From contig JAJYAG010000018.1 in NCBI GenBank assembly GCA_021779665.1, positions 1-60,598 of the forward strand: 60,598 nt of DNA, in the 5' to 3' direction. Positions 10,799-56,173 of this stretch are shown one piece after another; within the stretch, counting starts at the first letter, position 1, and each line of letters starts with the position of its first letter. The position numbers were made by a program, and so were the translations under genes. The notes beneath the pieces are model-generated. The model saw only the letters and a program-made list of their open reading frames with translations. It did not search any database and was not told where the DNA came from. This stretch comes from Bacteroidota bacterium (GTDB lineage: Bacteria; Bacteroidota; Bacteroidia; Bacteroidales; JAAUTT01).

Positions 10799-10838
10799 AA
10801 ATGTTCAGAGTTTTTTAGTCTAACAAAAAAATCAAAAT

Positions 10839-11384
10839 ATGAAGAAAATTTTTGTCCTCTTGCTTTCCGTTTTAAGTGTTTATGCAGCAAATGCGCAAAA
10901 GTATATCTCGAAGAACGGACATGTTTCATTTTACTCGAGTACACCAATTGAGAATATTGAGGCTAATAACAATCAGGCTGCAAGCATTCTAGATGCGTCC
11001 ACGGGCGAACTTGTGTTTAATGTTCTCATTAAATCGTTTGAATTTAAAAATGCCCTGATGCAGGAGCATTTTAACGAAAATTACATGGAATCGGATAAGT
11101 TTCCCAAAGCTTCCTTTAAAGGAAAAATAACCAATATATCAGCTGTCAGTTTTTCAAAAGATGGCTGTTATAATGTTGATGTAACCGGTGATTTGACTAT
11201 ACATGGAGTAACAAAACCTGTAACGGCTAAAGGATCCATTTCAGTAAAGGGCGAAACAGTCTCAGCTGAATCAAAATTTTTGGTTCAACCTTCGGATTAC
11301 AATATTCAAATTCCTAAATTGGTCGAAGGAAAAATTGCCAAACAGATTGAAGTGAGAATTGATCTCACCTATTCCAAAATGTAA
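10839..11384 (+). CDS. YceI-family periplasmic protein
   Basis: 181 residues with a signal peptide (MKKIFVLLLSVLSVYAANAQ) followed by a YceI lipocalin-like domain: GHVSFYSSTPIENIEANN at the N-terminus, the F.F.NALMQEHFNENYMES.KFP.ASFKG core, and VTGDLTIHGVTKPVT, a signature stretch of the family. YceI proteins bind polyprenyl or isoprenoid quinone-like lipids, and some accompany cytochrome b561 genes. That fits a quinone-linked electron-transfer setting, but the ligand here is inferred only. It follows the DUF5777 gene by 40 bases and precedes the OB-fold gene by 5, so the three look like an operon. Confidence 0.9.
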   Translation: MKKIFVLLLSVLSVYAANAQKYISKNGHVSFYSSTPIENIEANNNQAASILDASTGELVFNVLIKSFEFKNALMQEHFNENYMESDKFPKASFKGKITNISAVSFSKDGCYNVDVTGDLTIHGVTKPVTAKGSISVKGETVSAESKFLVQPSDYNIQIPKLVEGKIAKQIEVRIDLTYSKM

Positions 11385-11389
11385 GATTT

Positions 11390-11812
11390 ATGAAAAAGTG
11401 GATTTTAATTTTAGTGTTCATTTTTGTTGCTGGAGCCATTGCTTTGTATTTTTATGCCTTTAAAAAGCCACAACGTACCGCAGCTTCCGAAAAAGCAGTT
11501 TATACCATTTCGGCTAAAGACCTGACAACTGAATTTGAAACAGATGAAAATGCCGCCAATACCAGGTATCTCAACAAAGTTATAAAGGTCTACGGCATTG
11601 TTGCCGGAGTTTCTGAAAGTGAAGAAGAAGTGTCGGTTACATTAAAGGATGGAGGCAGCAGCGCAGGTGTAACCTGCAGTTTCGAAAAAGAATCGGTTGA
11701 TAAAAGCAAACTGCAACCAGGTCAGAAACTCTTTATCAAAGGTATCTGTTCAGGTTTTTTATTGGATGTGGTGCTCAATAAGTGTGCGCTGGATATAGAA
11801 GCTGAAAAATGA
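11390..11812 (+). CDS. Membrane-anchored OB-fold protein (tRNA_anti-like, copy A)
   Basis: 140 residues: an uncleaved N-terminal helix (about 4-24) then an OB-fold domain of the 'tRNA_anti-like' type. It shows AKDLTTEFETDENAANTRYLNKVIKVYGIV, strands carrying VSVTLKDGG and VTCSF, then LQPGQKLFIKGICSGF.LDV.L..C. It would hang in the periplasm. A paralogue with the same plan lies at 55727-56173, where the KY.NKVIEVSG..A.I and VKIGSSVRIKGVLIGFD segments align. Such OB-fold proteins recur beside YceI and cytochrome genes in Bacteroidota; their ligand is unknown. It is the last gene of the DUF5777-YceI unit. Confidence 0.75.
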   Translation: MKKWILILVFIFVAGAIALYFYAFKKPQRTAASEKAVYTISAKDLTTEFETDENAANTRYLNKVIKVYGIVAGVSESEEEVSVTLKDGGSSAGVTCSFEKESVDKSKLQPGQKLFIKGICSGFLLDVVLNKCALDIEAEK

Positions 11813-20900: not shown

Positions 20901-23900
20901 GCGTCTTTTGGTTCAGGAAGCCAGATTGGCACATCCGGATGGTATTGCGTTTACAATGGCGATAAGGATAGTATAACTGTTGGTAATTTGAAACCCAACA
21001 CGCAGTACCAGTTTCATGTTGTTGAATATTCAGGAACTGCTGGTAACGAAGTTTATTATACTGTAAAAGGTTCTGGCGACAATGCTTCGCATACCACAAG
21101 TCTGTTCTCGGATCAAAATTCTATTTCTATGCCAGGTGTTAGTTTTGGAAACGCCGATTGGGGTGATTACGATAATGACGGGTTCCTCGATCTGATTTAT
21201 TGTGGAGAGAATGGCTCAACAGGCATCACCAAAATTTATCATAACAATGGCAACAATACATTTACCGAGCTTGCCCAGTCAATAGCCGGAGTATCTTCGG
21301 GAAATGTGGCCTGGGGAGATTATGATAACGATGGCGATCTGGATTTTCTACTTACAGGATATTATTCATCCAAAGGTATTGCAAAAATATACAGAAATAA
21401 TAATGGCATTTTTGAAGATCAGACACAAATAACTCTTACAGGTGTTACCCAGGGTTCTATGGACTGGGGCGATTACGATAACGACGGCTACCTGGATATT
21501 ATTATTTCGGGATCTGCTGGCAGCACACCGGTGACAAAGATTTACAGAAATACAGGAACTAATAATTTTGTTGAACAGACAAACATCAGTTTACGGGGCC
21601 TTGATACTGGTTCTGTAGCCTGGGGTGATTACGATAATGATGGTCTTCTGGATATATTACTTACCGGAGGTGGATCAGGCTACTATACTGAAATTTACCG
21701 GAATAACGGTAATAATACCTTTTCAAATGTTGACAACTCCATTGAAGAGGTTTGGAGAAGTTGCGGTGTTTGGGGCGATTATGACAATGATGGTGACCTC
21801 GATATCCTTGTTGCGGGGGCTCCGAATTCAGTTGCAAAAATCTATACCAATAATGGTAATGGCACTTTCACTTACGATGCGGGTACCGGACTTGCCGGAT
21901 TTTCCCTGGGAACAGTAGCCTGGGGAGATTACGATAACGATGGTGATCTCGATATACTCGAATCGGGTTATGATCAGACCTTTAAAATAATGCAATATGC
22001 CAAAGTCTTCAGGAACAATGGTGATAAAACCTTTACGGAACTAACAAATATGGCCATTGCAGGAGTAAGTGAGGGCGAAGTAATGTGGGGCGATTACGAT
22101 AATGATAAAGATCTCGATATCTTTGTTTGTGGTTATATAGGTAACGGGGGAGTAGCAAAAATATACAAAAACGAAACAGTAACTCCTGATAATCTTCCTG
22201 CTGCTCCTGTTGGACTTACAAGTTCTCTGGAAGGCGAAAAATTGCTTTTAAAATGGAAGTCAGTTCGCACTGACGAAACTCTTTATACCGCATTAAGCTA
22301 TAATGTGAGGGTTGGTTCCGGACCAGGTAAATCGGACTTTACCTCAGTTATGGCCAACGATACCATTACCAAACCCAATGCTGGTTACCGGCGAGTAGCC
22401 CGGATGGGTAACGCGCAGTTGGACACCACGTTTATCCTGAAAAATCTTAAAAAAGGCACTTATTACTGGAGTGTACAGGCTGTGGATAACAGTTTTGCCG
22501 GAGGTTTATTTGCTCCCGAGCAGTCTTTTGTTTATAATGTTGATGTACAAGCTTCAAATGTTGGCACTCTGTTTAAGAACCTGACTTCGGCCAAGTCGTC
22601 CTGGGTGAGAGGAAATGGTGAAAAATGTGTTGTTTTTGTTAAGGAGAACGGCACCGGATTGGCATCTCCCGAAAATAATATAACCTACTCAGGAAATAAA
22701 GAGTTTGGGACAGGAACTCAAATTGGCACTTCAGGCTGGTATTGTGTTTATAATGGCGATTTGGATACAGCTACCATATCACGTCTGAAATCTGGTATAG
22801 AATACAGGTTTCACGTAATTGAATATTCGGGTGCTGCTGGAGCGGAAGTTTATTATACCGCCGCAGGAATGAATAATCCAACACAGTATTTGCCTCCATT
22901 TTCGGAACAGACTCAAATCTCGCTAACCGGCCTTTCAGGTAACACCAATGCCTGGGGTGATTACGACAATGATGGTGATCTCGACCTGATTATTGGCGGA
23001 TATACCGGTTCTCAGAATGTTGCAGAGCTACATCAGAATAATGGTGACAATACTTTTACAAAAACATCACTTAACTTAGGTCTCAATTCTTACGACGATC
23101 TGCAATGGGGTGATTTTGATAATGATAATGACCTTGATTTGCTTGTTTTAAGTTCCTGGGGATCCAAAGTGTTTGAGAATACAGGTAATGGTTCTTTTGC
23201 CGCTGTAGCTTCTCTGGCTATAATGTCTGGCGGAAAGGGTGAATGGGCCGATCTGAATAACGACGGTTATAAGGACATTATTTTCACTACAATGAGCGAA
23301 ACTAAAGTTTACAAAAATAATAAGGACAAAACTTTTACACAGCAAACAACCACCATGCCCGGATTATCTAATCATAGCTCCATAGCATGCGGCGATTATG
23401 ACAATGATGGCGATTTGGACGTTCTTCTTGCTGGTCTGAACAGTTCTGCAGCTATAACCAAAGTTTTCCGAAACGATGGCAATTTTGCTTTCGCTGAACA
23501 AACAGGGATCGTATTGCCCGGAATTTCCAACTGCTCCGTAGATTGGGCCGATATGGACAATGATGGTGATCTTGACATTATCATATCGGGAGCCGACTAT
23601 GATTTTGCTACCAAAATTTACGATAATGGCGGAAATAATACTTTCACCGAAATTGCCGGTACTCCCTTTAAGGAACTATACAGATCGTCCCTGGCTATTG
23701 GCGATTATGACAATGATGGCTATCGCGATTTACTGGTTTCTGGATCTTACGATGGAAGCGATTATTATACAATTCTTTACAAAAATAATGGGAATAAAAC
23801 CTATACAGAAGTTAAAACGGTAAGCTTTCCAGGAATTCAGTATGGATCGCTGAATTGGGGCGACTACGACAATGATAATGATCTCGATTTCTTTATGTGC

Positions 23901-25904
23901 GGAATGACCGCTAATGGGAGAATATCTAAAGTATTCAGGAATAACGGCGCTAATTTAAATTCGAGACCTGGTACTATATATCCTTCCTATACGCTTGATG
24001 GAAGCGATGTAAAAATTACATGGTATAAACCAGGAGGAGATAAAACTGCTGCTGCCGGAATGTCTTACAATCTTTATGTTTACGAAACTTCCAAAACTAT
24101 TTTCACCAGATCGGGCGAAGCTTTTACATACAGCCATGCATTGAACGGACGTAAGTTAGTGGCATCTTTTGGTGATCTTCAATACAATTCAAATGGTTAT
24201 ACCATTAAAGGTTTACCCGCAGGGGATTATAAGATTTCCATGCAGGCGGTGGATGCTGGTATGCTGGGTGGAAGCTTTTCATCCGAAAATTCATACAGCA
24301 TTTTCGATTTATCCGCGGTAAGTCTGGATTTTGCAACATCGTACATCATTAATACGAAATCGGGAATGCAGTACAGCATTAACAGTACTGATGGAGTTAA
24401 TGGTACATGGACTAATTGCTATGGTAATCAGAATTATGTAAACTTAAGTACAGGAGGATGCGACTTATGGATCCGTCAAAGCTATAACACAAAAAATAAC
24501 AGGAAAGTGGCGACCATTGCTCCACAGGCTGCGGCACCTGCTTATACCATTAACTTTGTAGCTGAAACAACCGTCGAAAACATTCCTGCAACAGTTGAAT
24601 ATTCTACCTCATCCAATTTCTGGAATAGTTCAACAGGTACTGATATTCCGGTAAATCTTTCATTAGGCAGTACCCTTTATCTAAGAACAAAAGCAACCGC
24701 ATCAACTATGGCATCGGCTGTTCAAAATCTGGTTGTTCCAGCACGCCCTTCCGCTCCGGCTTTTACAATTGATTTTGCGACTGAAAAAACAGCCCAGGTA
24801 ATTCCATCTAATGTTGAGTATTCGGCAAGTTATGACATGAGCAATGCAACCAGCGGTACAGGCGAACCCTTGGGAGTAGTTGCCCAACAGTCATTGTATT
24901 TTAGGACAAAAGGCACTTCCTCTACCTTTAAATCAGCTGTTCAGACTTTAACTGTTCCTGCAAGAGCTTATGCTCCTTCTTTTACAATTGACTATTCAAA
25001 TGAAACAACCAGCCAGATAATCTCATCTGCATACGAGTATTCTGCAAGCTCCGACATGAGCGGCTCAATTACAGGGAATGGAACCAAAATCGCCGTCACT
25101 CCCGGAGAAAGTTTATACTTAAGAACGAAATCAACATCCTCAGCCTTTAGTTCAGCTGTGCAAAAACTGACCTCACCAGTTCGACCTGCTACGCCTTCTT
25201 ATGGAATTGATTTTACCAATGAAACCACATCGACCTATGTGTCAGGTTCCTTTGAATACTCGCGTAATCAGGATATGAGCAATTCAACTACAGGAAACAA
25301 TACAAAAATTCAGGTTGTTCCCGGCGAAAAAATTTACATTCAGGTAAAAGCGACATCAAGTGCCTTTAAATCTCTGATCCAGACTTTGGAGGTACCCGCG
25401 CGGCCAGCTGCTCCAACCAATCTGATTACTGATGATGGTTCAAATACATTCGATTGGGACATTGTTCCAGGTTTTACAGAAGTTTCCGATTATGAGTATT
25501 CCACAAATGGTGGTAACAGCTGGATTGCAGTGAATGCTAAACCCATGAGTATTTCAAATTTGAATGTTAGTGCAGGCAATTTCAAACTTAGAATTAAGGC
25601 AACATCCTCCAGATTCAAAGGATCGGAAACTGCTTCAACACTTGCATTTACAACGGGAATAATTAAACTTGAGGAAATTGGTGTACGCATGTACCCCAAT
25701 CCGGCTTCGGATATTCTTTACCTTGAAAACTTACCGGAAGAAAGTGTGATTTACATTTTCAACCTGAATGGAAAACTTTTGGTTCAGAAGTCAGTTGAAG
25801 GAAAGGACATGAAGATTCCGTTAACAGATTTACCTCAGGGTTTATATCTCTTGAAGATACAAACTTTGCAAAAGGAATATCAGTCGAAATTTACCAAACA
25901 ATGA
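17913..25904 (+). CDS. Giant T9SS-secreted FG-GAP/VCBS repeat protein
   Basis: 2663 residues. In order: signal peptide (1-31, cleaved near LKSQ); an N-terminal beta domain (about 32-215) shared with the next gene; an Fn3-like segment; and three blocks of FG-GAP/VCBS repeats at about 468-829, 1064-1423 and 1662-2016. Each block has exactly seven repeats of about 50 residues with the Ca-binding type motif WGDYDNDGDLD. Fn3-like modules (RGNG.KCV.F.KENG...GWYCVYNGD) precede each block. Four tandem repeats of about 73 residues (2207-2499) and a T9SS sorting domain (from about 2585; MYPNPASDILYLEN, ending YQSKFTKQ) follow. Seven repeats suggest three seven-bladed propellers. It is probably a cell-surface or released adhesion or binding protein. 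Confidence 0.92.
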   Translation: MKNLYRNFSLTKFIMLCLCIQIAGYSSLKSQTYSFTAVQGTFTPLSGGTRLTSVESGACNTSFSVNPGFTFRYNGVNYTNIYVSQGFLAFSGVTFCGFNLSNVPAPIIAPFYQYMSGANGGLCSHKTEGTTPNRTFTVEWLNWGFSSGTAKFSMQIKIYETSNKIEFIYRPETASFSSYASIGLAFQKTGEFISLNNSGASPTASSEVSTSNISSFPVSGQVYRFTPVINPEPSNHATGFETFYPGSVSVKWIDAVGTTIPDRYLIKTSNVSFAAITNPADGVELTQDLDLKDGTGAVYVKKGVQQFKGWSDSAGNQTIYMKIFPLTNPNTLTNYKIDGTIPQLQISVPVYEARNLECSDFTANSINLKWVRGSRSNCIVFVKENTSGRSTPVNNTTYTANAAYGSGTQIGSTGWYCVYKGTANSVNVTGLKPYTSYAVHVLEYNGGAGAEQYSTVDELTSYKTYKTNLFNDIGTAFTGVKNSSVAWCDYDNDGDLDFIAAGTTASGRSTILYRNNGGGAFVNSGVVFPEVNYSSVSWGDYDNDGFADLVIAGTSTSSVRISKVYHNNGNGTFSELATAGLTGINAGNVIWGDYNSDGYADIFLCGSTGSGIISKIYMNLKNSTFAEQEVIKLPGIDYSSCLWGDFDNDEDLDLLISGYTGSSYITSLYRNDGKNSFVAQTGLSFPQISNSSLDAGDYDNDGDLDILFTGNLYYSSNVAKIFKNNGNLSFQEQSTINLFELNNSSARWGDMDNDGDLDILITGTKNYIPYSKVYLNNGDNTFTEDESLAFPAVDYSSVAWADFDNDKDLDLLLSGQTATGIITKVFRNEISLKNQVPSAPTGLTSVLSDKVVLKWRNINSAATPTKALTYNVRLGKTPGAYDIVSPLSSADGFRRIASLGNAQQDTIFALENIKKGTYYWTVQAVDNNFAGGPLAEEQSFTFNTDIPANSLVFRNIMAKSVKCLWNRGNGDKCVLFAKENGSNSSVPVNNTTYTADASFGSGSQIGTSGWYCVYNGDKDSITVGNLKPNTQYQFHVVEYSGTAGNEVYYTVKGSGDNASHTTSLFSDQNSISMPGVSFGNADWGDYDNDGFLDLIYCGENGSTGITKIYHNNGNNTFTELAQSIAGVSSGNVAWGDYDNDGDLDFLLTGYYSSKGIAKIYRNNNGIFEDQTQITLTGVTQGSMDWGDYDNDGYLDIIISGSAGSTPVTKIYRNTGTNNFVEQTNISLRGLDTGSVAWGDYDNDGLLDILLTGGGSGYYTEIYRNNGNNTFSNVDNSIEEVWRSCGVWGDYDNDGDLDILVAGAPNSVAKIYTNNGNGTFTYDAGTGLAGFSLGTVAWGDYDNDGDLDILESGYDQTFKIMQYAKVFRNNGDKTFTELTNMAIAGVSEGEVMWGDYDNDKDLDIFVCGYIGNGGVAKIYKNETVTPDNLPAAPVGLTSSLEGEKLLLKWKSVRTDETLYTALSYNVRVGSGPGKSDFTSVMANDTITKPNAGYRRVARMGNAQLDTTFILKNLKKGTYYWSVQAVDNSFAGGLFAPEQSFVYNVDVQASNVGTLFKNLTSAKSSWVRGNGEKCVVFVKENGTGLASPENNITYSGNKEFGTGTQIGTSGWYCVYNGDLDTATISRLKSGIEYRFHVIEYSGAAGAEVYYTAAGMNNPTQYLPPFSEQTQISLTGLSGNTNAWGDYDNDGDLDLIIGGYTGSQNVAELHQNNGDNTFTKTSLNLGLNSYDDLQWGDFDNDNDLDLLVLSSWGSKVFENTGNGSFAAVASLAIMSGGKGEWADLNNDGYKDIIFTTMSETKVYKNNKDKTFTQQTTTMPGLSNHSSIACGDYDNDGDLDVLLAGLNSSAAITKVFRNDGNFAFAEQTGIVLPGISNCSVDWADMDNDGDLDIIISGADYDFATKIYDNGGNNTFTEIAGTPFKELYRSSLAIGDYDNDGYRDLLVSGSYDGSDYYTILYKNNGNKTYTEVKTVSFPGIQYGSLNWGDYDNDNDLDFFMCGMTANGRISKVFRNNGANLNSRPGTIYPSYTLDGSDVKITWYKPGGDKTAAAGMSYNLYVYETSKTIFTRSGEAFTYSHALNGRKLVASFGDLQYNSNGYTIKGLPAGDYKISMQAVDAGMLGGSFSSENSYSIFDLSAVSLDFATSYIINTKSGMQYSINSTDGVNGTWTNCYGNQNYVNLSTGGCDLWIRQSYNTKNNRKVATIAPQAAAPAYTINFVAETTVENIPATVEYSTSSNFWNSSTGTDIPVNLSLGSTLYLRTKATASTMASAVQNLVVPARPSAPAFTIDFATEKTAQVIPSNVEYSASYDMSNATSGTGEPLGVVAQQSLYFRTKGTSSTFKSAVQTLTVPARAYAPSFTIDYSNETTSQIISSAYEYSASSDMSGSITGNGTKIAVTPGESLYLRTKSTSSAFSSAVQKLTSPVRPATPSYGIDFTNETTSTYVSGSFEYSRNQDMSNSTTGNNTKIQVVPGEKIYIQVKATSSAFKSLIQTLEVPARPAAPTNLITDDGSNTFDWDIVPGFTEVSDYEYSTNGGNSWIAVNAKPMSISNLNVSAGNFKLRIKATSSRFKGSETASTLAFTTGIIKLEEIGVRMYPNPASDILYLENLPEESVIYIFNLNGKLLVQKSVEGKDMKIPLTDLPQGLYLLKIQTLQKEYQSKFTKQ

Positions 25905-46632: not shown

Positions 46633-47766
46633 ATGAAAAAATTTTTAAGAATCAATTTGTTTTTAGCCACTGTTTGTATTCTTGCAATGGCTGCATTTAC
46701 CGCTTGTGAAGGCCCTGCTGGTGTTCCGGGAGAAGATGGTCAGGCCGGTGTTGATGCTAACGAAACCTGTAAAAAATGTCACAATTCAACTTCTGGAATG
46801 GTAGCAAAGAGCAAACAATTAAATCATTCTTTGCATGCTTCAGGAGAAGCCTGGCTTGAAGGAACAAGAAATAGTTGTGCTCCTTGTCACTCAAATGAAG
46901 GTTTTCTTGATGTAATAGCTAAAAAGCCTGCTAAGAATAAGTATAATGCTTCAGCAGCAGCTTTAACTGATCCTACATCGTTTAGTTGCCGTACCTGTCA
47001 TAAGATCCACACAGCTTATGATTCGACTGACTATGCATTTACAACCACAGCCCCGATCGATATGCTTATTGATACCACCAAAACTTTAACTCTCGATTTT
47101 GGAACGGGCTCAAGCAGCAATCTCTGTGCTAAATGCCACCAGCCACGTATTGTTAAGCAAATGGACTTCAATGGAGCTCCTACGACAGCTTATACTGCTA
47201 TAACAAGTTACAGATGGGGTACTCACTATGGTACTCAGGGTGCGATTGCAGGTGGTAAAGGTGCAATGGAATTTACCGGAGCAGAAACTTATGCCAACTC
47301 AGCTCACAAAGCGGGTGCTACTTGTGCTTCCTGCCATGGCGCTGCTGCTTCAGGTATTTCGGGAGGACACACCTTCAGCGTTGTGAACGAAGAAACCGGC
47401 GCCATCAATACCAATGGTTGTGTTAAATGTCACACTACAGGAACGTCAGCTTTGACTACTAAAATTAATAACACTAAAACTGAAATTGATAATTTGCTTA
47501 ATCAATTAGGTGCAAAACTGGATGCTTTTCTTGAAAAGGAAGATGGCGCTTACACAGGTTATATTGATCTTTACGATGCAAGTGCCAATAGTAATGCAAG
47601 GTATAAAAACCCAAACAGTGGCAATGTTGCTTTGCCGACTGTAGACAACCGCACTGCTGCAGCATTGGTTAACTTCATGCTTGTCTTCAGAGACAAAAGC
47701 CATGGTATTCACAATTATCCTTATACAAGGGCATTGTTGAAAAATTCAATTGCTGCATTACCTTAG
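46633..47766 (+). CDS. Hexaheme cytochrome c lipoprotein with collagen-like stretch
   Basis: 377 residues. The lipobox FTAC ends at Cys25. Directly after come five Gly-X-Y triplets (GPAGVPGEDGQAGVD, residues 27-41). Six CXXCH heme sites follow: Cys46-His50, Cys82-His86, Cys119-His123, Cys165-His169, Cys231-His235 and Cys263-His267, with additional His residues (for example HSLH, THYG, SAHK, GGHTF) able to act as distal ligands. The last 100 residues have no heme motif. It is probably a surface- or periplasm-exposed electron carrier. It is transcribed alone, closed by a terminator, next to the minus-strand quinol:cytochrome operon and sharing a promoter motif with its regulator. Confidence 0.88.
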   Translation: MKKFLRINLFLATVCILAMAAFTACEGPAGVPGEDGQAGVDANETCKKCHNSTSGMVAKSKQLNHSLHASGEAWLEGTRNSCAPCHSNEGFLDVIAKKPAKNKYNASAAALTDPTSFSCRTCHKIHTAYDSTDYAFTTTAPIDMLIDTTKTLTLDFGTGSSSNLCAKCHQPRIVKQMDFNGAPTTAYTAITSYRWGTHYGTQGAIAGGKGAMEFTGAETYANSAHKAGATCASCHGAAASGISGGHTFSVVNEETGAINTNGCVKCHTTGTSALTTKINNTKTEIDNLLNQLGAKLDAFLEKEDGAYTGYIDLYDASANSNARYKNPNSGNVALPTVDNRTAAALVNFMLVFRDKSHGIHNYPYTRALLKNSIAALP

Positions 47767-48292: not shown

Positions 48293-48703
48293 CTATTGTT
48301 TAAAAGTTCTCATGTAGTTAACAATAGCCCAAATATCATTGTCGTCAATTTTCTTGTCGTATTTTGGCATCTCACCTCTGCCAAATTTAGTTTTGTAGAA
48401 ATGTTCACCGTCAGTTTGGTTCTGATAGACTGGTTTCGACATGTCTCCTGCAGGAGTGTCCAAAGTACGGGCTTTAGGTCCGTCTCCAAGGCCTTTCTTA
48501 CCATGACATGAAGCACAATTCTGGTTGTACAATGCTTTACCATTAGCTATGGATTCCGGTGATGATTTAACCGGGTTTTTCATAGATTTGTAGTTAGCAG
48601 GTACATCCCATGGCTTTGGCTGAGCTGCAACAAACGACATTAAAAAAACTACTGCCAATGCAACACCAGCAATAGATGATAACATTTTAACTGCTTTTTT
48701 CAT
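48293..48703 (-). CDS. Monoheme class I cytochrome c
   Basis: 136 residues with a signal peptide (cleavage near SFVAAQ). The heme site is Cys63-Ala-Ser-Cys66-His67 (NCASCHGKKGLGDGPKA), and GRGEMPKYD supplies the axial Met. DNDIWAIVNYMRTF is the usual C-terminal helix of class I cytochromes. It is a small periplasmic carrier, last gene of the cluster B operon, probably taking electrons from the membrane complex. It has a perfect AGGAGG Shine-Dalgarno sequence (complement of 48708-48713), rare in this phylum, just upstream of the ATG. Confidence 0.92.
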   Translation of the reverse strand: MKKAVKMLSSIAGVALAVVFLMSFVAAQPKPWDVPANYKSMKNPVKSSPESIANGKALYNQNCASCHGKKGLGDGPKARTLDTPAGDMSKPVYQNQTDGEHFYKTKFGRGEMPKYDKKIDDNDIWAIVNYMRTFKQ

Positions 48704-48741
48704 ATTACCTCCTTGTTTAAAATTATTCTACTTCTATTTTG

Positions 48742-49590
48742 CTAAACTCTGTTTTTTATACGTCTTAATTGAAAAATTACATAAGCATAGTGTGCCCAAA
48801 CTCCTACCAATAGGATGGTTAAACTTACAATCATCCATAAAGGAGCAATCTGGGTCCATAAAGCACGGTGTGTAACCAGAACTTTCTGCTTAGGTATACC
48901 CCATTGTACTGTTGCTGCAGACTCAAGATTTCCATAGGTCTCATGCTCTGCTATAAATGCCACAACATGAAGATTTCCGATTGAATCGCCCGGTAAGTTT
49001 ACAGGAAATTCCAATGAGCCGGTACCTGATTCATCAAGGGTGACTTCACCAACGGGCAAACGGCTAAACATCCGCTGAACCGAAACTACAACCGTTTCTT
49101 CAGCGAGTGGACTTTCACTTCCGTCAGGGTTAATTTTAAAGCCTTCAACCTTTACAGTTTGAATGGTATCAACCATTTCGCAGGTTACTTTTATTCTGGC
49201 TTCGTTGAATAAAGCTTCACCTGAGGCAGATTCATAAAGTTCATTTCCGGAGTAAGTTGCATTAATGGTTATAACACCTTCTTTGCTCCGGGGCAGAATT
49301 ACTCCGGGTTTAATATAAGCATAAGCATACCCGTTTTTATCGGTAACGTTTCCTTCTATATTTAGAGGAGATTCAGAATCTACTGAATAATTTATTGCAG
49401 CACCTGCAATAGGAAAATCAATCTTCCTGTCCATATAAGTTAACCGGGATTTAAGCTCGTAGCTTCCATCGGTCAGCTTTTTAACAGTAAATGTTAAATC
49501 AGGAGTCTTTTTTTCTGTTTCCTGCGAGGTAGCCTTGAATGTAAAGGCTACTATGAATAAAGATGTTAATAAGATATAGAGAGGTCTCAT
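48742..49590 (-). CDS. Unknown Ig-like periplasmic protein with C-terminal membrane helix
   Basis: 282 residues from ATG 49590, two bases after the nrfD-like gene. It has a signal peptide (MRPLYILLTSLFIVAFTFKATSQ), then about 215 residues of beta-rich sequence with Ig-like strand pairs (ELKSRLTYMDRKIDFPIAGAAINYSV, GYAYAYIKPGVIL, GVITINATYSGNELYESASGEA, ITVEGF-like repeats). A single helix follows near 248-268 (WMIVSLTILLVGVWAHYAYVIF), then a basic tail. No Cys-His heme sites. I do not recognise the family. Its fixed place between NrfD and the monoheme cytochrome makes it a candidate accessory subunit of the complex. Confidence 0.7.
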   Translation of the reverse strand: MRPLYILLTSLFIVAFTFKATSQETEKKTPDLTFTVKKLTDGSYELKSRLTYMDRKIDFPIAGAAINYSVDSESPLNIEGNVTDKNGYAYAYIKPGVILPRSKEGVITINATYSGNELYESASGEALFNEARIKVTCEMVDTIQTVKVEGFKINPDGSESPLAEETVVVSVQRMFSRLPVGEVTLDESGTGSLEFPVNLPGDSIGNLHVVAFIAEHETYGNLESAATVQWGIPKQKVLVTHRALWTQIAPLWMIVSLTILLVGVWAHYAYVIFQLRRIKNRV

Positions 49591-49592
49591 GG

Positions 49593-50924
49593 TTAAACAG
49601 TTTTTGGAGCACAATTAACATTTTCTGTTTCCTCTTCTTTTTCAGTTAATTCCGAAACAGAGATGATAGGAATAAATTTCGCAGCAATCATCATGAGCAT
49701 TACAAATACAGCAATACCTGCGGTAAATAATGAGAATTCCACCCATGTTGGCGTATATTTAATCCAGGCTAACCTGTTGTCCTGTATCGGGAGAAAAGGA
49801 GTCTCCAGGGTAGGAACAACTATCAGATAACGGTTAAACCAGAGAGAGATAAGGGTTACCACAGCTCCAAATGTAATGAGGTTAACAGTACGGAATTTTT
49901 TGAATGCCAGTATCACCATTGGAACAATAACACCAACATAGTTGGCTACCACGAACTCCCAAAAATACTGCTTAAAAAGATGATCTATCAGTACTTTATC
50001 CATTTTTACCGAACCATACCATTTTGTAAGATAGTCGCTGAAAGTAAAATATCCATAGAATGCTCCAAGAATAAGAAGCATAATTCCAACATTTACGAAA
50101 TGCTGACAGGTAATATATTCTTCAAGTTTAAAGATTTTGCGGTAAAACCACATAAGCACAATGAGTAAACCTGTTCCTGAATATACAGCAGCAATAACAA
50201 AATATGGTCCAAAAATGGTACTGTGCCAGCCCGGCTGAAGCGTAACGCCAAAGATCCATGCCAAAACTGAATATACGATGATTGCAATAGAAATAACCAT
50301 TGCAGCCATGATATTTTTGCTTCGCTTTATAAGTTTAACCTGCATAGGCGTTCCCGTGTAGTTCATTGCCAAAATTTTATAAAGTTTTTTCTTCCAGGCA
50401 GGTACATTTAACCCCTTGAAATCCCTGAGTTTGGCAAAATCTTCAATAAACGAAAGATACAAATAAAGTAAACAACCTACAATATCCGTGCTGATAGCAA
50501 TTACGTCCCAGGTGATTGGAGACTGGATACGCGGATACAATATCAGATAGTGAAGACGGTCGAAACGGCCCACACAGAACAAAATAAAACAAGGACCTAT
50601 TAACAGGGAAATTACGGTAATTAATTCTCCCATACGCATAATTGGTTTTCTCCATGGAGTCTTCATAAGGTGCAATGCGCCTGAAAGGATGGCGCCTGCA
50701 TAACTCAACCCCATAAAAAATATGAAATTTACAATGTAAACTCCCCAAACAACATGGTCGCGCATACCAGTTACATCATGACCGTAAGAAATCTGATATG
50801 TAAGGCCATAAATCCCGATTATAAACAGCATCAACATTACTCCGAACACCAGCCACCATTTTCTGGATGGATTTTCAAGCTGCGGAGCAAATTCCTTTAA
50901 TATTACATCTGAGGTCTTTTCCAT
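49593..50924 (-). CDS. NrfD/PsrC-type membrane quinol-interacting subunit
   Basis: 443 residues with about ten hydrophobic helices, matching the NrfD/polysulfide reductase membrane-subunit family. GLTYQISYGHDVTGMRDHVVWGVYIVNFIFFMGLSYAGAILSGALHL is the first-helix region, and GMRD...WG.YI..F.F..G...G is the family pattern. This subunit binds menaquinol at the inner membrane and passes electrons to the ferredoxin-like partner encoded three bases upstream. Unlike Act/Hmc systems there is one NrfD gene and no molybdopterin subunit. It uses no heme itself. Confidence 0.9.
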   Translation of the reverse strand: MEKTSDVILKEFAPQLENPSRKWWLVFGVMLMLFIIGIYGLTYQISYGHDVTGMRDHVVWGVYIVNFIFFMGLSYAGAILSGALHLMKTPWRKPIMRMGELITVISLLIGPCFILFCVGRFDRLHYLILYPRIQSPITWDVIAISTDIVGCLLYLYLSFIEDFAKLRDFKGLNVPAWKKKLYKILAMNYTGTPMQVKLIKRSKNIMAAMVISIAIIVYSVLAWIFGVTLQPGWHSTIFGPYFVIAAVYSGTGLLIVLMWFYRKIFKLEEYITCQHFVNVGIMLLILGAFYGYFTFSDYLTKWYGSVKMDKVLIDHLFKQYFWEFVVANYVGVIVPMVILAFKKFRTVNLITFGAVVTLISLWFNRYLIVVPTLETPFLPIQDNRLAWIKYTPTWVEFSLFTAGIAVFVMLMMIAAKFIPIISVSELTEKEEETENVNCAPKTV

Positions 50925-50927
50925 AGG

Positions 50928-51917
50928 TTATTTGGGATTTGAATCTTTGTGGAATGTTTCCTTAATGACATCTAAATTGTCGTATCTTGATTTTATCGAG
51001 TCCGGTATTCCTTCATAGCCACGTTCCCATGGGAATTGACGTTCAGTTGGAGGAAGGTAATACACGGATGGCTCTGTACCAAGGTGTTCCATATATCTGT
51101 AACCACCCTTGGAAGCAATAAGCTCACTGAAACGTACAGTTTCTGTTCCATTTGTTACGGTATCTTCCAGAATATCACCAAAATAAATAACGCCCATAGG
51201 ACAGGCTGTGGCACATCTTGGAAGTTCGTTATTCCTTAATTTATCAGGACAGAAAATGCACTTACCAACCGTTCCTTCTTTGGGAGGAATATTTACTTCG
51301 GGAGAATAAGGGGTATTTTCGTCTACTTTTACATCTGGTTTTTTCCAGTGAAATACACGTGCTGAATAGGGGCATCCTGTCATACAGAATTTGCAGCCTA
51401 TACATCTTTCGGTATCAACCAAAACAATACCATCAGTACGTTTATAAGTGGCACCAACAGGACAAACACTCACACAAAGAGGATTGTCGCAGTGGAAACA
51501 TGGTTTGGGAAACCAGTATGGAGCTGAATTGTCCGAATCTTTAAGCAGATACAGCTTCATCCATTCATGGTCGTGTGGTAATTTATGTCCTTCCTGACAT
51601 GCTTCAACACACTTGCGGGCATTTTTACATTTCGCCAGATCGATTACCATGACAAACTTTCTTCCGGGTATTCCCTGATGCGCTTGTTTTCTATCTATAA
51701 ACACATCCTTTGGAGGCATAATTGATGATTTCTCAACTTCAACAACTTTGCCATCAGGAGTTAATACTTTAATAGTCTCCGTTAACTCTTTTTTGTCAGC
51801 CGGCTCTCCACCCTTTGCGATTTTGACTCCCGCCAAACCCGCAATAGTTGCCGCTCCTGCTCCAAGTCCAAGCCTCAGGAAGTTTCTTCTTGATTTCCTT
51901 GCTTCACTTTTTTCCAT
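50928..51917 (-). CDS. Tat-exported [4Fe-4S] ferredoxin subunit (NrfC/HmcB-like)
   Basis: 329 residues with a Tat signal (KSRRNFLRLGLGAG). Four Cys motifs: C97-x5-C103-x3-C107; C140-x2-C143-x4-C148-x3-C152; C172-x2-C175-x2-C178-x3-C182; and C220-x2-C223-x11-C235-x3-C239. The last three are complete four-Cys sets. The first has Ala100 where a fourth ligand would sit, so it may hold a [3Fe-4S] or an altered cluster. It pairs with the NrfD protein in the periplasm and relays electrons from quinol towards the cytochromes. Confidence 0.93.
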   Translation of the reverse strand: MEKSEARKSRRNFLRLGLGAGAATIAGLAGVKIAKGGEPADKKELTETIKVLTPDGKVVEVEKSSIMPPKDVFIDRKQAHQGIPGRKFVMVIDLAKCKNARKCVEACQEGHKLPHDHEWMKLYLLKDSDNSAPYWFPKPCFHCDNPLCVSVCPVGATYKRTDGIVLVDTERCIGCKFCMTGCPYSARVFHWKKPDVKVDENTPYSPEVNIPPKEGTVGKCIFCPDKLRNNELPRCATACPMGVIYFGDILEDTVTNGTETVRFSELIASKGGYRYMEHLGTEPSVYYLPPTERQFPWERGYEGIPDSIKSRYDNLDVIKETFHKDSNPK

Positions 51918-51940
51918 AATATTTTTTTCAAGAGTAATTT

Positions 51941-52558
51941 TTATTCGTGTACCTCGTGATAACCAGAGGCCATTGCTTTAAAATGACTACCAGGTTTATG
52001 TCCTATAGTGCAGAAATAAATGTGAACTATCATAAACAGTGAAACTACAAACCCTGCAATCACGTGAATTAAATCTGTAATAAACAGACCTATATTACCA
52101 AAAACATCGTTTACAACCAATTCAGGAAAGAGTAAAGCCCAACCTGTAACAACCATTACTGGCACAAACCCATACATTATAAACAGATATGAAAGCTGCT
52201 GTAAAGGATTGAATTTCTTCGTTTTGTTAATAGGAAAAGGGGGCTTCTGATTTTTGAAAATACCAAAAGCATAGTATTGAAACTGTTTGATAATACTGGG
52301 CCAGAATCCCTTCCAGAGTATTTTATAATGTACTCCGTTCCCTTTTAATATGTTTCCAATGTAAAAGATAAAGTAGTTAAAAGTCAGGATTATTCCGCTT
52401 ACATTATGCCAGGCTACTGCGTGATCGAACCGGATAATCGGATTTTCGATGCTTGAATATTGCATGCTTACTCCGGTAATTATCAAAGCCAGGCACATGA
52501 GTGCATTTATGGTATGCCAAACCCTTATCCAAACCGGATAAAAATAAACCTTGTCCAT
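51941..52558 (-). CDS. Diheme cytochrome b (HydC/FdnI-like) subunit
   Basis: 205 residues with four or five helices. VWIRVWHTINALMCLALIITG opens like hydrogenase/formate dehydrogenase cytochrome b subunits. His15, His51 (or His46), His165 and His179 are placed to ligate two b hemes: HTINAL, AWHNVSG, LIHVIAGF, IVHIYF. It oxidises menaquinol in the inner membrane. It sits between the heptaheme cytochrome and the Fe-S gene, so the complex may have two quinol-contacting subunits (this and NrfD). Confidence 0.88.
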   Translation of the reverse strand: MDKVYFYPVWIRVWHTINALMCLALIITGVSMQYSSIENPIIRFDHAVAWHNVSGIILTFNYFIFYIGNILKGNGVHYKILWKGFWPSIIKQFQYYAFGIFKNQKPPFPINKTKKFNPLQQLSYLFIMYGFVPVMVVTGWALLFPELVVNDVFGNIGLFITDLIHVIAGFVVSLFMIVHIYFCTIGHKPGSHFKAMASGYHEVHE

Positions 52559-52564
52559 GAATAG

Positions 52565-53542
52565 CTAACGTTTAAAAATCCTTAATAACAGGTGTATGAT
52601 AATACCCGATAATGTAATTATAGCCAGGGTAATACTAATCACATTCAGGTAATAATTACGGTTTGCACCAATAACAAACGATTCGTTTAGAATAACACTA
52701 TTGATAAAGCCAAACTGTTGCCGGTTTTGTTTCACTTTGTATTTATATAAAGAGGCCATCAACAAAGAGTTTTGCGAATGGCATTCAGCACAAAGGTGAA
52801 CTGCCTTGGATTTGGGAAGTATTTTGTGCGATACAAGCAATGTATCATTTTGCCGGGCATGACATTCAACACAGCGTACATTTTTAAAGTGCAATTCCTG
52901 ATTGGGAAGCCAGTCGTGCTTTTCTACGATGTTAGTTTTATCTTTGGTTGTAAGAACTTCCATGCGGTTAATGTTTGCATGGCAACCAAGACATATGTTA
53001 TTGTCGTATAAAACGGTTTTAGTTACGTTGTGGCTTACCCGAGCATTGGTTTTATAGGTATGCGGGTCGTGACACTGCCAGCAGGTAAATGCATCTTTAT
53101 CGGCTTTGTAATGAATACTATTTTCGAAGTGAGTACTTATTTCTTCGAAATGGTATTTGGAATAAGCCTCATCGCCCGCATGGCAATCCATGCAGGCGTA
53201 GTTTTGTTCGGCTTTCAGAGCAGCATTATGAGGATATGTGCTGAATTCTTCAGAATGACAATCAGTACATTTAAAGGTCTTGTGATTCGAACTGTAAAAC
53301 AGAGTTGTATCAATTACATAATTCGAACAAAGCTCCTTGCGGATTATACGACTGCTGTCAGAGTTCGGAAACTCGTAATGGTAATTTGCATGGCATCTGA
53401 GACAAGTGTTATTTTCATTTCTGAAAAAAACTGGTTTTTTGTTCTCAGGAGCTGTTTGTGATACTTCCTGAGCATTCAAAAGCGTTGCAAATAACAAACC
53501 AAAAAGAAGACAGCTTGCTGAAAAAAAGAATCGCCTTACCAT
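52565..53542 (-). CDS. Heptaheme cytochrome c, membrane-anchored
   Basis: 325 residues: signal peptide (to about LLNAQ), seven CXXCH sites (Cys47-His51, Cys92-His96, Cys117-His121, Cys154-His158, Cys184-His188, Cys224-His228, Cys251-His255) and a C-terminal helix at about 299-321 with a basic end. Many extra His residues (HYEFP, SNHKTF, KYHFEE, SIHYK, VSHN, VEKHDW, ELHF, VSHK) suit bis-His ligation. It would be the periplasmic electron exit of the complex. It starts nine bases after the DUF5777 gene and ends six bases before the cytochrome b gene. Confidence 0.93.
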   Translation of the reverse strand: MVRRFFFSASCLLFGLLFATLLNAQEVSQTAPENKKPVFFRNENNTCLRCHANYHYEFPNSDSSRIIRKELCSNYVIDTTLFYSSNHKTFKCTDCHSEEFSTYPHNAALKAEQNYACMDCHAGDEAYSKYHFEEISTHFENSIHYKADKDAFTCWQCHDPHTYKTNARVSHNVTKTVLYDNNICLGCHANINRMEVLTTKDKTNIVEKHDWLPNQELHFKNVRCVECHARQNDTLLVSHKILPKSKAVHLCAECHSQNSLLMASLYKYKVKQNRQQFGFINSVILNESFVIGANRNYYLNVISITLAIITLSGIIIHLLLRIFKR

Positions 53543-53551
53543 TTAATATTA

Positions 53552-54433
53552 TTAAAACCTTACAGTAATGTTAAAACCTAATGACAAGCCACCTGCGAAA
53601 AAGTCGGCTTCGTTCATGGCCATATTATACTGAGGAATGATGCTTCTATAGCTGGCTACAAAAACCTGGAAAGCATGTGTTGCAGTTCCTTTCTCGAAAC
53701 CAAGGGCAAAGTTAGGCTTTGGAGTAAATGCGTTGTCGCCTTTTCCGGTAAGGTAAGCCTGGTCGTATTCGAAAGTAGCACCCCAGCCCGGAGCAAATTT
53801 AACTTTACCGCCAGCAGAAGCACCTACATTATAATTACTGTATTTACGATCTACAGCATTGAAATACATAAACGACGGAGCAACCTGAAACGATAAGACT
53901 TCGCTGAATTTGCGGGCTACAATAAATTGTGAAAAATACGAGAAACGGTGGATATATTTATATTGAGACTCAGGCCCAAAAAATTCTTCACCACGGGCGT
54001 CGAGGGCAACGTTACCATAATAACTTAAAGAAAATGGCATACTGCCGGAGCGGGTTTGCTGCAGAATAGCATATTTCCAGTGAAGGTCCTGGAGCTTACG
54101 GTCTTTTTCAGTACCTATACCAATCATAATTTTGTCGGTAACACCGTAATTGAAACCCATGCGAATATTGGATGCAGCGTAAAGCCCAAAAATGTCGTCG
54201 AGTTTATTTTCTTTTACGTTACCGAAACGGTGATGAATTACCAGCTCTAACGAACCTTTAGCCGGAGTTACCGGAGTTTGCATATCAATAAGCTGGGCGG
54301 CATCAAACCATCCTTTTACCGGCCTGTTGTCCGGTTGGTCCTGACCAGATTGCCCCTCTTCCTGAGCCTTCAATAAGTTACCGGTAAATAATGCAAAAAT
54401 CAAAACACATGCAATCGAAATCAACCTTTTCAT
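53552..54433 (-). CDS. DUF5777 outer-membrane beta-barrel protein (copy B)
   Basis: 293 residues, the same length as copy A at 9917-10798. Signal peptide (cleavage near LLKAQ) and barrel-like strands follow; shared motifs are HHRFGNV, FNYGVTDKIMIGIG, SLSYYGNVALD, RKFSEVLSFQVAPSF and ATHAFQVF. It ends in GLSLGFNITVRF. It lies inside the cytochrome operon between a lipoprotein cytochrome and the heptaheme protein, nine bases from the latter. An outer-membrane pore or sheath for the cytochromes is a reasonable guess, not shown. Confidence 0.82.
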   Translation of the reverse strand: MKRLISIACVLIFALFTGNLLKAQEEGQSGQDQPDNRPVKGWFDAAQLIDMQTPVTPAKGSLELVIHHRFGNVKENKLDDIFGLYAASNIRMGFNYGVTDKIMIGIGTEKDRKLQDLHWKYAILQQTRSGSMPFSLSYYGNVALDARGEEFFGPESQYKYIHRFSYFSQFIVARKFSEVLSFQVAPSFMYFNAVDRKYSNYNVGASAGGKVKFAPGWGATFEYDQAYLTGKGDNAFTPKPNFALGFEKGTATHAFQVFVASYRSIIPQYNMAMNEADFFAGGLSLGFNITVRF

Positions 54434-54458
54434 ATTTCAAAAATTAGTTAGTTTTAAA

Positions 54459-54803
54459 TTAGTTATTTTTTGCGCCCTGGTCAAACCACAGCAGAATCTT
54501 AGCAAGATTATCGGGCGAGATGTATCCCTGATGTGCCTGATTATTACTAAGTTTTACATAAATTTTACTTGATTTTGCGTTTACCGTATCGATAAAAGCA
54601 GCTGTTGCCAGATTTTTGTAGAAGTTAGTCTGGGCCTTAAACGCAACGTGACATCTGCTGCAATCGTTGTTTAAGGGAGGAGTTACATCGGTTTTAAATG
54701 AAACCTGCCCTTCAATTTTTGGAGGATCAAATGCGACCTTTTCGCACGAGCTAAAAAACAGAAACCCACCAAACACAATTAGATAACTTAAAAAATTACG
54801 CAT
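54459..54803 (-). CDS. Small lipoprotein cytochrome c, first gene of cluster B operon
   Basis: 114 residues: lipoprotein signal MRNFLSYLIVFGGFLFFSSC, then a short module with one CXXCH (CSRCH in NNDCSRCHVAF) and a C-terminal LLWFDQGAKNN helix. This is the same module as in the cluster A lipoproteins (compare IWI.QGA.N). The axial ligand is less clear, as the Met-Pro segment is replaced by NNQAHQGYISP. It heads an eight-gene minus-strand operon, 25 bases before the DUF5777 gene, and faces the Crp/Fnr gene across a 229-base regulatory gap. Confidence 0.85.
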   Translation of the reverse strand: MRNFLSYLIVFGGFLFFSSCEKVAFDPPKIEGQVSFKTDVTPPLNNDCSRCHVAFKAQTNFYKNLATAAFIDTVNAKSSKIYVKLSNNQAHQGYISPDNLAKILLWFDQGAKNN

Positions 54804-55032: not shown

Positions 55033-55737
55033 ATGACAACATTTCATCGATCAACGAATTGCCATAACTGTGATGTTTGTAATCAGAAGTCACCTTTCTT
55101 TAAAAGTCTTTCGGAAGAGCAAATAAAGATTCTTAATGAAAATCGCTATGAAATAACCTTTCGGGAAGGAGAGAACATTATTAAACAGGGTACAGCCTCG
55201 TCGCATGTGATAATGCTTACTTCAGGTATGGCAAAAATGTATATCGAAGGCATTGATAACCGCAACCTTATATTAGAACTCGTAAAACCCTGGGTACTTA
55301 TAGGCGGGCCAGGAATATATATTGACAACCGCTACCATTATTCTGTAACCGCTCTCGAGACCTGCACTGCCTGTTTTATTGAGACTGCAAACCTGAAGAA
55401 AGTTGTGCGTCAGAATCCCGATTTTGCTGAAACAATGTTATCACATTGCAGTTTTAATGGTTCTAAAAACTTTGAAAGACTGGTCAGTATTGTACAAAAA
55501 CAAATGCACGGACGTATTGCGGATGTACTCCTTTATTTAATGAAAGAAGTTTACGCCTCCGGTACATTCGAACTAAACATCTCCCGCCAGGATATCGGTG
55601 ACTTGTCAGGATTATCAAAGGACAGTGCCATCCGTATTCTGAAAGAACTCGAAAATGAAGGTGTTATTCAGCTGGATGGCAGGAAAATCAGCATACTGAA
55701 GGAGGATATGCTTAAGATGATATCTTTTAAAGGCTAG
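55033..55737 (+). CDS. Crp/Fnr-family transcriptional regulator
   Basis: 234 residues: cyclic-nucleotide-binding-type beta-roll (about 25-120), dimer helix (about 140-172) and a winged helix-turn-helix (ISRQDIGDLSGLSKDSAIRILKELENEG, about 184-211). The N-terminus carries Cys10, Cys13 and Cys16, and the roll has Cys111 and Cys114. In FNR an N-terminal Cys group plus one roll Cys bind an O2-sensing [4Fe-4S] cluster, so redox or NO sensing is plausible, though the spacing (C-x2-C-x2-C) is not that of E. coli FNR. Divergent from the cytochrome operon it probably controls. Its 3' end overlaps the OB-fold gene by 11 bases. Confidence 0.9.
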   Translation: MTTFHRSTNCHNCDVCNQKSPFFKSLSEEQIKILNENRYEITFREGENIIKQGTASSHVIMLTSGMAKMYIEGIDNRNLILELVKPWVLIGGPGIYIDNRYHYSVTALETCTACFIETANLKKVVRQNPDFAETMLSHCSFNGSKNFERLVSIVQKQMHGRIADVLLYLMKEVYASGTFELNISRQDIGDLSGLSKDSAIRILKELENEGVIQLDGRKISILKEDMLKMISFKG

Positions 55738-56173
55738 GAGCAGGAGCTTTGCTCTCCAGAATAATGCTTTGATTCATCATCAGGCCTATCATTGGATCAA
55801 AGCCAATTAAAACACCTTTAATGCGAACCGAACTTCCTATTTTCACTTCTTCGGGAAGGGTTTTAATAGTGGTATCCATTACACATCTCATTCCCATCAT
55901 GGCATCGTCCATTGTAATTATAATGCCATGCATATCACTGTTTTTGATATTGGCCACGGAGCCTGAAACTTCTATTACTTTATTCCCATATTTAATGTTG
56001 GCAATGCTGTCGTTAACCAAAAATTCCTTATTCAGGGCCATGGATGAAGTTTTAAAATCCGCTTTTTTCGAATTTACATTATTTGGCTGGCGTAAATAAT
56101 AGATTACAATAATAACTCCTAAGATTACAAGAGGAAGAAGAACTGTAAAAATGGTTTTTGTCTTTGATTTCAT
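55727..56173 (-). CDS. Membrane-anchored OB-fold protein (tRNA_anti-like, copy B)
   Basis: 148 residues: N-terminal helix (about 8-27), linker, then an OB-fold matching the cluster A protein at 11390: LNKEFLVNDSIANIKYGNKVIEVSGSVANIK, IITMDDAMMGMRCVMD, and LPEEVKIGSSVRIKGVLIGFD. Met-rich stretches (DDAMMGMRCVMD, DPMIGLMMNQS) are notable and absent from copy A. Periplasm-facing. It is convergent with the Crp/Fnr gene, overlapping its 3' end. Confidence 0.75.
   Translation of the reverse strand: MKSKTKTIFTVLLPLVILGVIIVIYYLRQPNNVNSKKADFKTSSMALNKEFLVNDSIANIKYGNKVIEVSGSVANIKNSDMHGIIITMDDAMMGMRCVMDTTIKTLPEEVKIGSSVRIKGVLIGFDPMIGLMMNQSIILESKAPAPSL

Follow-up and report, generated by a model that had tools for sequence, protein, structure and literature searches.

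In conduits of the MtrCAB type, a large barrel in the outer membrane encloses a multiheme cytochrome. Geobacter is equipped with several inner-membrane routes for quinol oxidation in one system, namely ImcH, CbcL, and Cbc. ImcH has been delimited as a protein of 495-519 amino acids (aa) with three N-terminal transmembrane (TM) segments, one CX3CH, and six CX2CH motifs (PMC6295460). Alternative complex III (ActABCDEF) contains the NrfD-type subunit ActC, for which His139, Asp169, and Asp253 have been named as quinone-site residues (PMC8076601). Among multiheme cytochromes, OcwA of Thermincola is reported to have nine hemes, two of them with open coordination (PMC6703420), and an undecaheme S-layer cytochrome occurs in Carboxydothermus. 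In Bacteroidota, a seven-gene cluster of six multiheme cytochromes and a barrel in the anode-enriched metagenome-assembled genome Bacteroidetes_1 was proposed for extracellular electron transfer (PMC8258643). Here we analyze an eight-gene operon in a stretch of 60,598 nucleotides, hereafter the window, from a Bacteroidales genome (assembly GCA_021779665.1, 6.9 Mb in 305 contigs; contig JAJYAG010000018.1, positions 1 to 60,598, forward strand), in which genes for an NrfD protein and an Fe-S protein are joined to cytochrome genes and to an outer-membrane barrel of the DUF5777 family. The matches listed from the open-licence literature, mostly titles and starts of abstracts, contained no description of this operon, and a search of open-licence papers for DUF5777 gave no paper. 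Judging from gene content and its variation among relatives, the locus probably encodes a modular, outward-directed anaerobic respiration of the extracellular-electron-transfer type that draws on interchangeable quinol dehydrogenases; of these, the operon of the window encodes an ActC-like one, and a gene of the ImcH-like kind lies elsewhere in the genome.

Organization and conservation of the locus

The eight genes, all of which are open, occupy the minus strand between 54803 and 48293 and are separated by 25, 9, 6, 23, 3, 11, and 38 bases. They begin with an export module consisting of a monoheme c-type cytochrome lipoprotein (54459..54803, 114 aa, lipobox FSSC, heme motif CSRCH), a DUF5777 outer-membrane beta-barrel (53552..54433, 293 aa), a heptaheme cytochrome c (52565..53542, 325 aa, with a signal peptide and a C-terminal membrane anchor), and the partner of the latter, a four-helix and probably diheme cytochrome b (51941..52558). 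A quinol module follows, which comprises an Fe-S protein of the DsrO/PsrB-like kind exported by the twin-arginine (Tat) route (50928..51917, 329 aa, 15 Cys), an NrfD-family, ActC-like membrane protein that is probably a quinol oxidase (49593..50924), and a membrane-anchored protein with two immunoglobulin (Ig)-like domains that is cognate to its NrfD clade (48742..49581; the most likely start is ATG 49581, as the mechanical TTG start at 49614 would overlap NrfD). The last gene encodes a monoheme cytochrome c of the cbb3-III type (cytC1; 48293..48703, 136 aa, signal peptide). An initial annotation, made from the sequence alone, had described a minus-strand operon with short gaps, and both this layout and its gene identities hold, the latter backed by Pfam and NCBIfam for cytochrome c, DUF5777 barrel, cytochrome b, Fe-S protein, and NrfD. 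It had drawn the locus too narrowly, however: beside the eight genes, the conserved locus includes a hexaheme c-type lipoprotein (46633..47766, plus strand, 377 aa), found within 10 kb in 32 of 40 loci with full flanks, and a divergent regulator of the Crp/Fnr family with an N-terminal CxxCxxC (55033..55737, plus strand), relatives of which occur within 10 kb in 35 of the 40. The latter is likely the regulator of the operon.

A heptaheme profile had matches in 40 of the order's 198 genomes; searched against genomes of named species, it gave 197 relatives, the best 80 of which provided the named-species loci. Of these 80 records, 79 are titled as Bacteroidota or a group inside that phylum and one (L186) as Chlorobiota. 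Genes in all loci analyzed were labelled by our own open reading frame (ORF) picking and profile matches, not by curated annotation, and the 121 heptaheme ORFs in them amount to 117 distinct ones, four pairs having come by both routes. Of 345 genomes sampled across the phylum, six matched, namely the window's own, one strong match, and four partial ones. The heptaheme had seven CXXCH motifs in all 80 kept loci. Where the loci left room, cytochrome b was the next gene after it (76/76), the barrel lay no more than two genes upstream (69/72), and the monoheme lipoprotein no more than three genes upstream (65/68). Among the 55 loci with sufficient flanking sequence on either side, 21 had all eight genes contiguous; six of these keep the order of the window, and in the other 15 cytC1 is placed between the barrel and the heptaheme. 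Gene-order conservation, a check proposed beforehand, was thus borne out, and the set recurs well beyond chance and is conserved in Bacteroidales.

The hexaheme and the heptaheme share 34 of the 198 genomes against 9.3 expected, with Fisher p-values that ignore shared ancestry. For these comparisons, the operon-type barrel was defined by 47 genomes scoring at least 240 bits, which excludes genomes with weaker DUF5777 matches (51-199 bits); a partial barrel in genome G136 entered the proximity count (36/37) but not the Fisher tests. The full-length Ig set comprises 17 genomes (E 1e-30 or better) and a broader one 50. Near the export module, 15 of 55 loci carry an unlabelled ORF of 585-600 aa (e.g., L170:5570-7348), the cited example of which resembles an acyl-CoA dehydrogenase by eye and possibly ties fatty-acid oxidation to respiration.

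Exchange of probable quinol dehydrogenases

The two modules also occur apart from each other. Among 73 loci with room, the Fe-S/NrfD pair was found downstream of the heptaheme on the same strand in 34 and was lacking in 39, so the idea that it belongs to every heptaheme locus is false, and two loci (L034 and L041) show the order lipoprotein-barrel-FeS-NrfD-Ig without a heptaheme. Because the quinol set and the heptaheme/cytochrome b set travel separately, we discarded an obligate eight-subunit complex, and the single complex that the initial annotation had envisaged is not supported; the operon is made of modules and is probably not one fixed complex.

In five loci (L074, L075, L076, L089, and L090), an ImcH-like gene directly follows cytochrome b and thus occupies the position that Fe-S/NrfD holds in the window. 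The order there is hexaheme, monoheme lipoprotein, barrel, in some cases cytC1, heptaheme, cytochrome b, and ImcH-like gene, with an unlabelled one-heme ORF in the place of the monoheme lipoprotein in L076. Within 10 kb, the 40 loci with full flanks contained Fe-S/NrfD (14 loci), Fe-S/NrfD with ImcH (4), ImcH (5), NrfD located elsewhere with ImcH (2), ImcH with a CbcL-like gene (2), or none of these (13). The ImcH-like protein of the window's genome has 512 aa in its open frame, three TM segments by hydropathy, one CX3CH, and six CX2CH, as published for ImcH; the copy in L036, which served as a query, shows two TM segments at the same hydropathy threshold. The assignment rests on those published criteria, Geobacter ImcH being compared by description only.

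A CbcL-like protein of 920-935 aa with 19 CXXCH was present in 11 loci, all with a barrel or heptaheme, and in 16 of the 198 genomes, all 16 of which also possess the heptaheme or the operon-type barrel. The CbcL family is defined by a multiheme c domain fused to a diheme b domain of six helices. In the two copies that were read (L164 and L186), the 19 CXXCH are followed by a C-terminal membrane part with four hydrophobic segments after the hemes, and only that of L164 showed similarity, a weak one (20 bits), to the operon cytochrome b. The locus resembles the Geobacter systems in pairing a cytochrome b with a multiheme cytochrome c, in having ImcH-like and CbcL-like genes linked to it or in place of the NrfD set, and in offering several inner-membrane routes. 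It differs from them, as far as descriptions allow a comparison, in its phylum and in an NrfD set that is ActC-like and has an Ig subunit. The Bacteroidetes_1 cluster likewise belongs to Bacteroidota and combines multiheme cytochromes with one barrel, but its published description, in the parts available, mentions no NrfD, Fe-S, or Ig gene (PMC8258643); it is a possible counterpart of the present cluster.

The export module and the outer membrane

The heptaheme contains exactly seven CXXCH, a C-terminal hydrophobic helix, and seven further conserved His in its periplasmic part. Cytochrome b matched Ni_hydr_CYTB (85.5 bits) and, below the cut-off, a PhsC-like model, and the monoheme lipoprotein gave sub-threshold family matches only. 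The barrel matched PF19089 with 227.6 bits, and its structure model (predicted local distance difference test score, pLDDT, 89.4) has 12 strands. The best matches of the model were FapF, KdgM, COG4313, and NanC by VIA-align and OmpG and general porins by Foldseek; MtrB was not among the 50 structural matches listed, although absence from those is no proof. The predicted fold is that of an ordinary small barrel, and the lipoprotein cytochrome adjoining it has a single heme. An MtrAB-like conduit was rejected as an explanation, the 12-strand model speaking against it. The claim that an outer-membrane barrel and a lipoprotein cytochrome accompany the quinol module, and that electrons are probably moved outwards, finds support in the sequences. 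At 9917-11812 on the plus strand, the window shows DUF5777 in a different context, where a second barrel of this family (333 bits) precedes genes for a YceI protein and an OB-fold protein of the tRNA_anti-like kind.

The quinol module

NrfD (Pfam NrfD, 109 bits) is closest to ActC among solved structures (6f0k_C, E 1.3e-56; 6btm_C, 2.9e-56), its four best relatives in the PDB are ActC-type chains, and the Fe-S protein is homologous to the Fe-S part of ActB. The initial annotation had related the set to Hmc-, Qrc-, and Act-type modules, and of these the Act relation stood, whereas the NCBIfam scores remained below the cut-offs for QrcD (35 against 570 bits), QrcC (124/400), DsrO (170/200), DsrP (64/350), and HmcB. 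Membership in Qrc or Dsr was accordingly rejected, since the equivalog cut-offs were not reached. Membership in alternative complex III was rejected as well, because defining subunits are missing: the operon shares with it an ActC-like NrfD, the ActB-type Fe-S part, and presumably the role of passing electrons from quinol to cytochrome c, but it lacks the molybdopterin-like ActB1 domain, a second NrfD (ActF), and ActA, and it adds the Ig membrane subunit. ORFs of approximately 900-1030 aa near some loci were considered as ActB and dropped, as the three that were read (L046, L082, and L170) resemble, by eye, the cytochrome c maturation protein CcsBA. With a 329-aa Fe-S protein standing alone, the module is a probable quinol:cytochrome module without a molybdenum subunit, as had been proposed.

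At the quinone site of ActC, His139 is replaced by Cys117 and Asp253 by Ile224 in the operon NrfD; Asp169 (as Asp140) and Ser164 are kept. All 38 heptaheme-linked NrfD proteins of the Ig type have this Cys and Ile. At the His139 position, other NrfD proteins of the Ig type have Cys (12/15) or Asp (3/15), those of a cytochrome c-Ig type have Asp (16/16), and both ActC sequences included have His; these counts may include up to four genomes twice. In a tree of the fetched sequences, the operon NrfD grouped, with support, with NrfD of the cytochrome c-Ig type to the exclusion of the two ActC. In the Fe-S protein, the second Cys of the first cluster is replaced by Ala in 47 of 49 sequences, the window included, which suggests three [4Fe-4S] clusters and one [3Fe-4S] cluster. 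The Fe-S protein of the cytochrome c-Ig type has one Cys replaced by Ser (14/14).

The Ig protein showed only sub-threshold similarity to Big_1. It follows NrfD in 33 of the 34 heptaheme loci that have Fe-S/NrfD, and in one locus set each of the 24 ORFs labelled Ig, including four with a heme motif, has NrfD immediately upstream; the Ig subunit is thus a recurrent family that follows NrfD of its kind. In a sister family, preceded by NrfD in 12 of the 16 loci having it, a cytochrome c domain stands in for the first Ig domain and is fused to the second one and its membrane helix. This cytochrome domain is homologous to cytC1. Most simply, the Ig protein would be a scaffold in the membrane that places an acceptor cytochrome next to the Fe-S protein, and the window-type module would have this acceptor as a separate soluble protein. 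Six loci (L054, L055, L060, L062, L063, and L071) have FeS-NrfD-[cytochrome c-Ig-TM] beside genes called oxidase-like from ORF size and heme pattern, the sequence having been read for L062 only, where Pfam confirmed COX2 fused to cytochrome c. This set resembles a compact quinol-to-oxidase supply module. At L046:13860-19899, multiheme cytochromes with 16 and 6 CXXCH stand beside a CcsBA-like gene near FeS-NrfD-Ig, and the latter cytochrome is apparently fused to an OmpA-like domain, both by eye.

The sister set, together with the homology of cytC1 to its cytochrome domain, raises an alternative in which the operon encodes a periplasmic quinol:cytochrome c reductase that feeds oxidases or soluble reductases, the barrel and lipoproteins serving uptake or envelope maintenance; a 12-strand porin-like barrel would suit a pore for small solutes. 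The window-type cluster is, however, linked to outer-membrane lipoprotein cytochromes, the barrel, and ImcH-like and CbcL-like genes, with strong co-occurrence, and no oxidase-like set was seen in window-type clusters, the unlabelled neighbors of which were not all identified. We consider this alternative unlikely, though it is the best placed of those weighed against an outward-directed respiration.

The hexaheme lipoprotein

The hexaheme lipoprotein is a candidate surface terminal reductase with a lipobox (FTAC), a Gly-rich linker, and six CXXCH. Its predicted fold, of the OcwA/NrfA type, combines an NrfA-like heme domain with a C-terminal helix bundle, as in OcwA. Another six His are conserved (42-43 of 43 relatives), which together with the six CXXCH would fit bis-His ligation of every heme and leave no catalytic site open. 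It has fewer hemes than OcwA (nine) and the Carboxydothermus cytochrome (eleven), and it differs from both in its lipoprotein anchor, Gly-rich linker, Gram-negative host, and probable bis-His ligation throughout.

The NrfA-like domain might instead indicate respiration of nitrite, hydroxylamine, or another oxyanion with the hexaheme as an NrfA-type reductase. This is more doubtful still, as all six hemes are of the CXXCH type with a predicted ligation that leaves no site open, and the genome encodes a complete NrfA as a protein of its own (614 bits). It also has an alternative complex III-like set elsewhere (L097; a 392-aa hexaheme, a 996-aa Fe-S protein, and two NrfD), so neither job needs the eight-gene operon. 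Moreover, isolates of Labilibaculum, a genus in which the export module occurs, are described as reducing Fe(III), and nitrite reduction was not seen in them (PMC5760507).

Two further features of the window are a tRNA_anti-like (PF12869) protein at 55727-56173 on the minus strand, which is convergent with the Crp/Fnr gene and shares its Pfam family with the gene at 11390-11812, and a single ORF of 2663 aa at 17913-25904 on the plus strand.

Proposed electron route and its relation to metal reduction

We infer the direction of electrons, the use of quinone, the surface location, and the acceptor from the gene set as follows. Menaquinol oxidation in the inner membrane would fall to two units, the NrfD/Fe-S/Ig set, which is a pared-down relative of alternative complex III, and the cytochrome b/heptaheme pair. 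Electrons would pass to the periplasmic monoheme cytochrome c and the heptaheme, and next via the outer-membrane lipoprotein cytochrome and the DUF5777 barrel to the surface hexaheme, which may reduce extracellular acceptors such as Fe(III), Mn(IV), humics, or an electrode.

The export module also occurs in cultured isolates, among them Labilibaculum sp. K2S (L120) and Marinifilum sp. N1E240 (L114), both of which have a hexaheme homologue nearby and no Fe-S/NrfD in the locus. An ImcH-like gene was found in all five genomes tested among export-module loci without Fe-S/NrfD, and the heptaheme is present in seven of nine Labilibaculum genomes. Fe(III) reduction has been reported for strains of Labilibaculum, as has that of Mn(IV) for strain 59.10-2M, with the genes for metal reduction remaining to be specified according to their describers (PMC5760507). 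That the same machinery works inward, taking electrons from Fe(II), metallic iron, or partner cells, is improbable: CbcL, MtrH, and MtoC homologues are noted from Fe(III) reducers and Fe(II) oxidizers alike, but ImcH homologues are reported from Fe(III) reducers only (PMC6295460), and the Labilibaculum isolates are described as fermenting heterotrophs (PMC5760507).

Several observations weigh against the outward route. At the outer membrane, no electron conduit was identified, and the small barrel with its 12 predicted strands is probably too narrow to enclose a multiheme wire such as that of MtrAB. In the inner membrane, quinol oxidation by NrfD is uncertain because two of the three ActC quinone-site residues are replaced. 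Linkage is incomplete as well: 13 of the 40 loci with full flanks have no NrfD, ImcH, or CbcL-like dehydrogenase within 10 kb, eight have no hexaheme within that distance, and only 12 of 25 pairs of heptaheme and ImcH-like gene in one genome lie within 15 kb of each other. The genome of the window has its ImcH-like gene on a different contig (G000:C114) and yielded no CbcL-like gene, and G064, one of two other genomes of the same genus, is without heptaheme, hexaheme, and ImcH. The fold of the hexaheme scores nearly as well with NrfA (Z 13.7) as with OcwA (14.1). Finally, the tie to metal reduction is a genus-level correlation that comes from the export module, not the NrfD set, and the describers of Labilibaculum pointed to other candidates, namely a cytochrome with the annotation NrfHA and a putative ferric reductase (PMC5760507).

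A more comprehensive reading, which we regard as possible and advance only tentatively, is that Bacteroidota possess a widespread extracellular electron transfer pathway of their own, with a new Cys/Ig-type NrfD quinol oxidase interchangeable with ImcH and CbcL and a crossing of the outer membrane unlike MtrAB. In such a pathway, Cys would replace the proton-accepting His of ActC, the acceptor cytochrome would have been freed from the Ig scaffold as a soluble shuttle, and the 12-strand barrel and the monoheme lipoprotein would cross the outer membrane to serve an OcwA-like surface hexaheme. If true, this would explain the reduction of Fe(III) and Mn(IV) in Labilibaculum and its relatives. Apart from this reading, the locus is one version of a cluster found repeatedly in Bacteroidota of anaerobic sediments, and it provides candidate genes for the unexplained reduction of iron and manganese minerals by some of them, as a conserved set open to deletion tests in a cultivable relative. 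With it, ImcH and CbcL would be joined by a quinol dehydrogenase of an ActC-like kind, and it raises the structural question of how electrons may cross the outer membrane when the linked barrel has 12 predicted strands.

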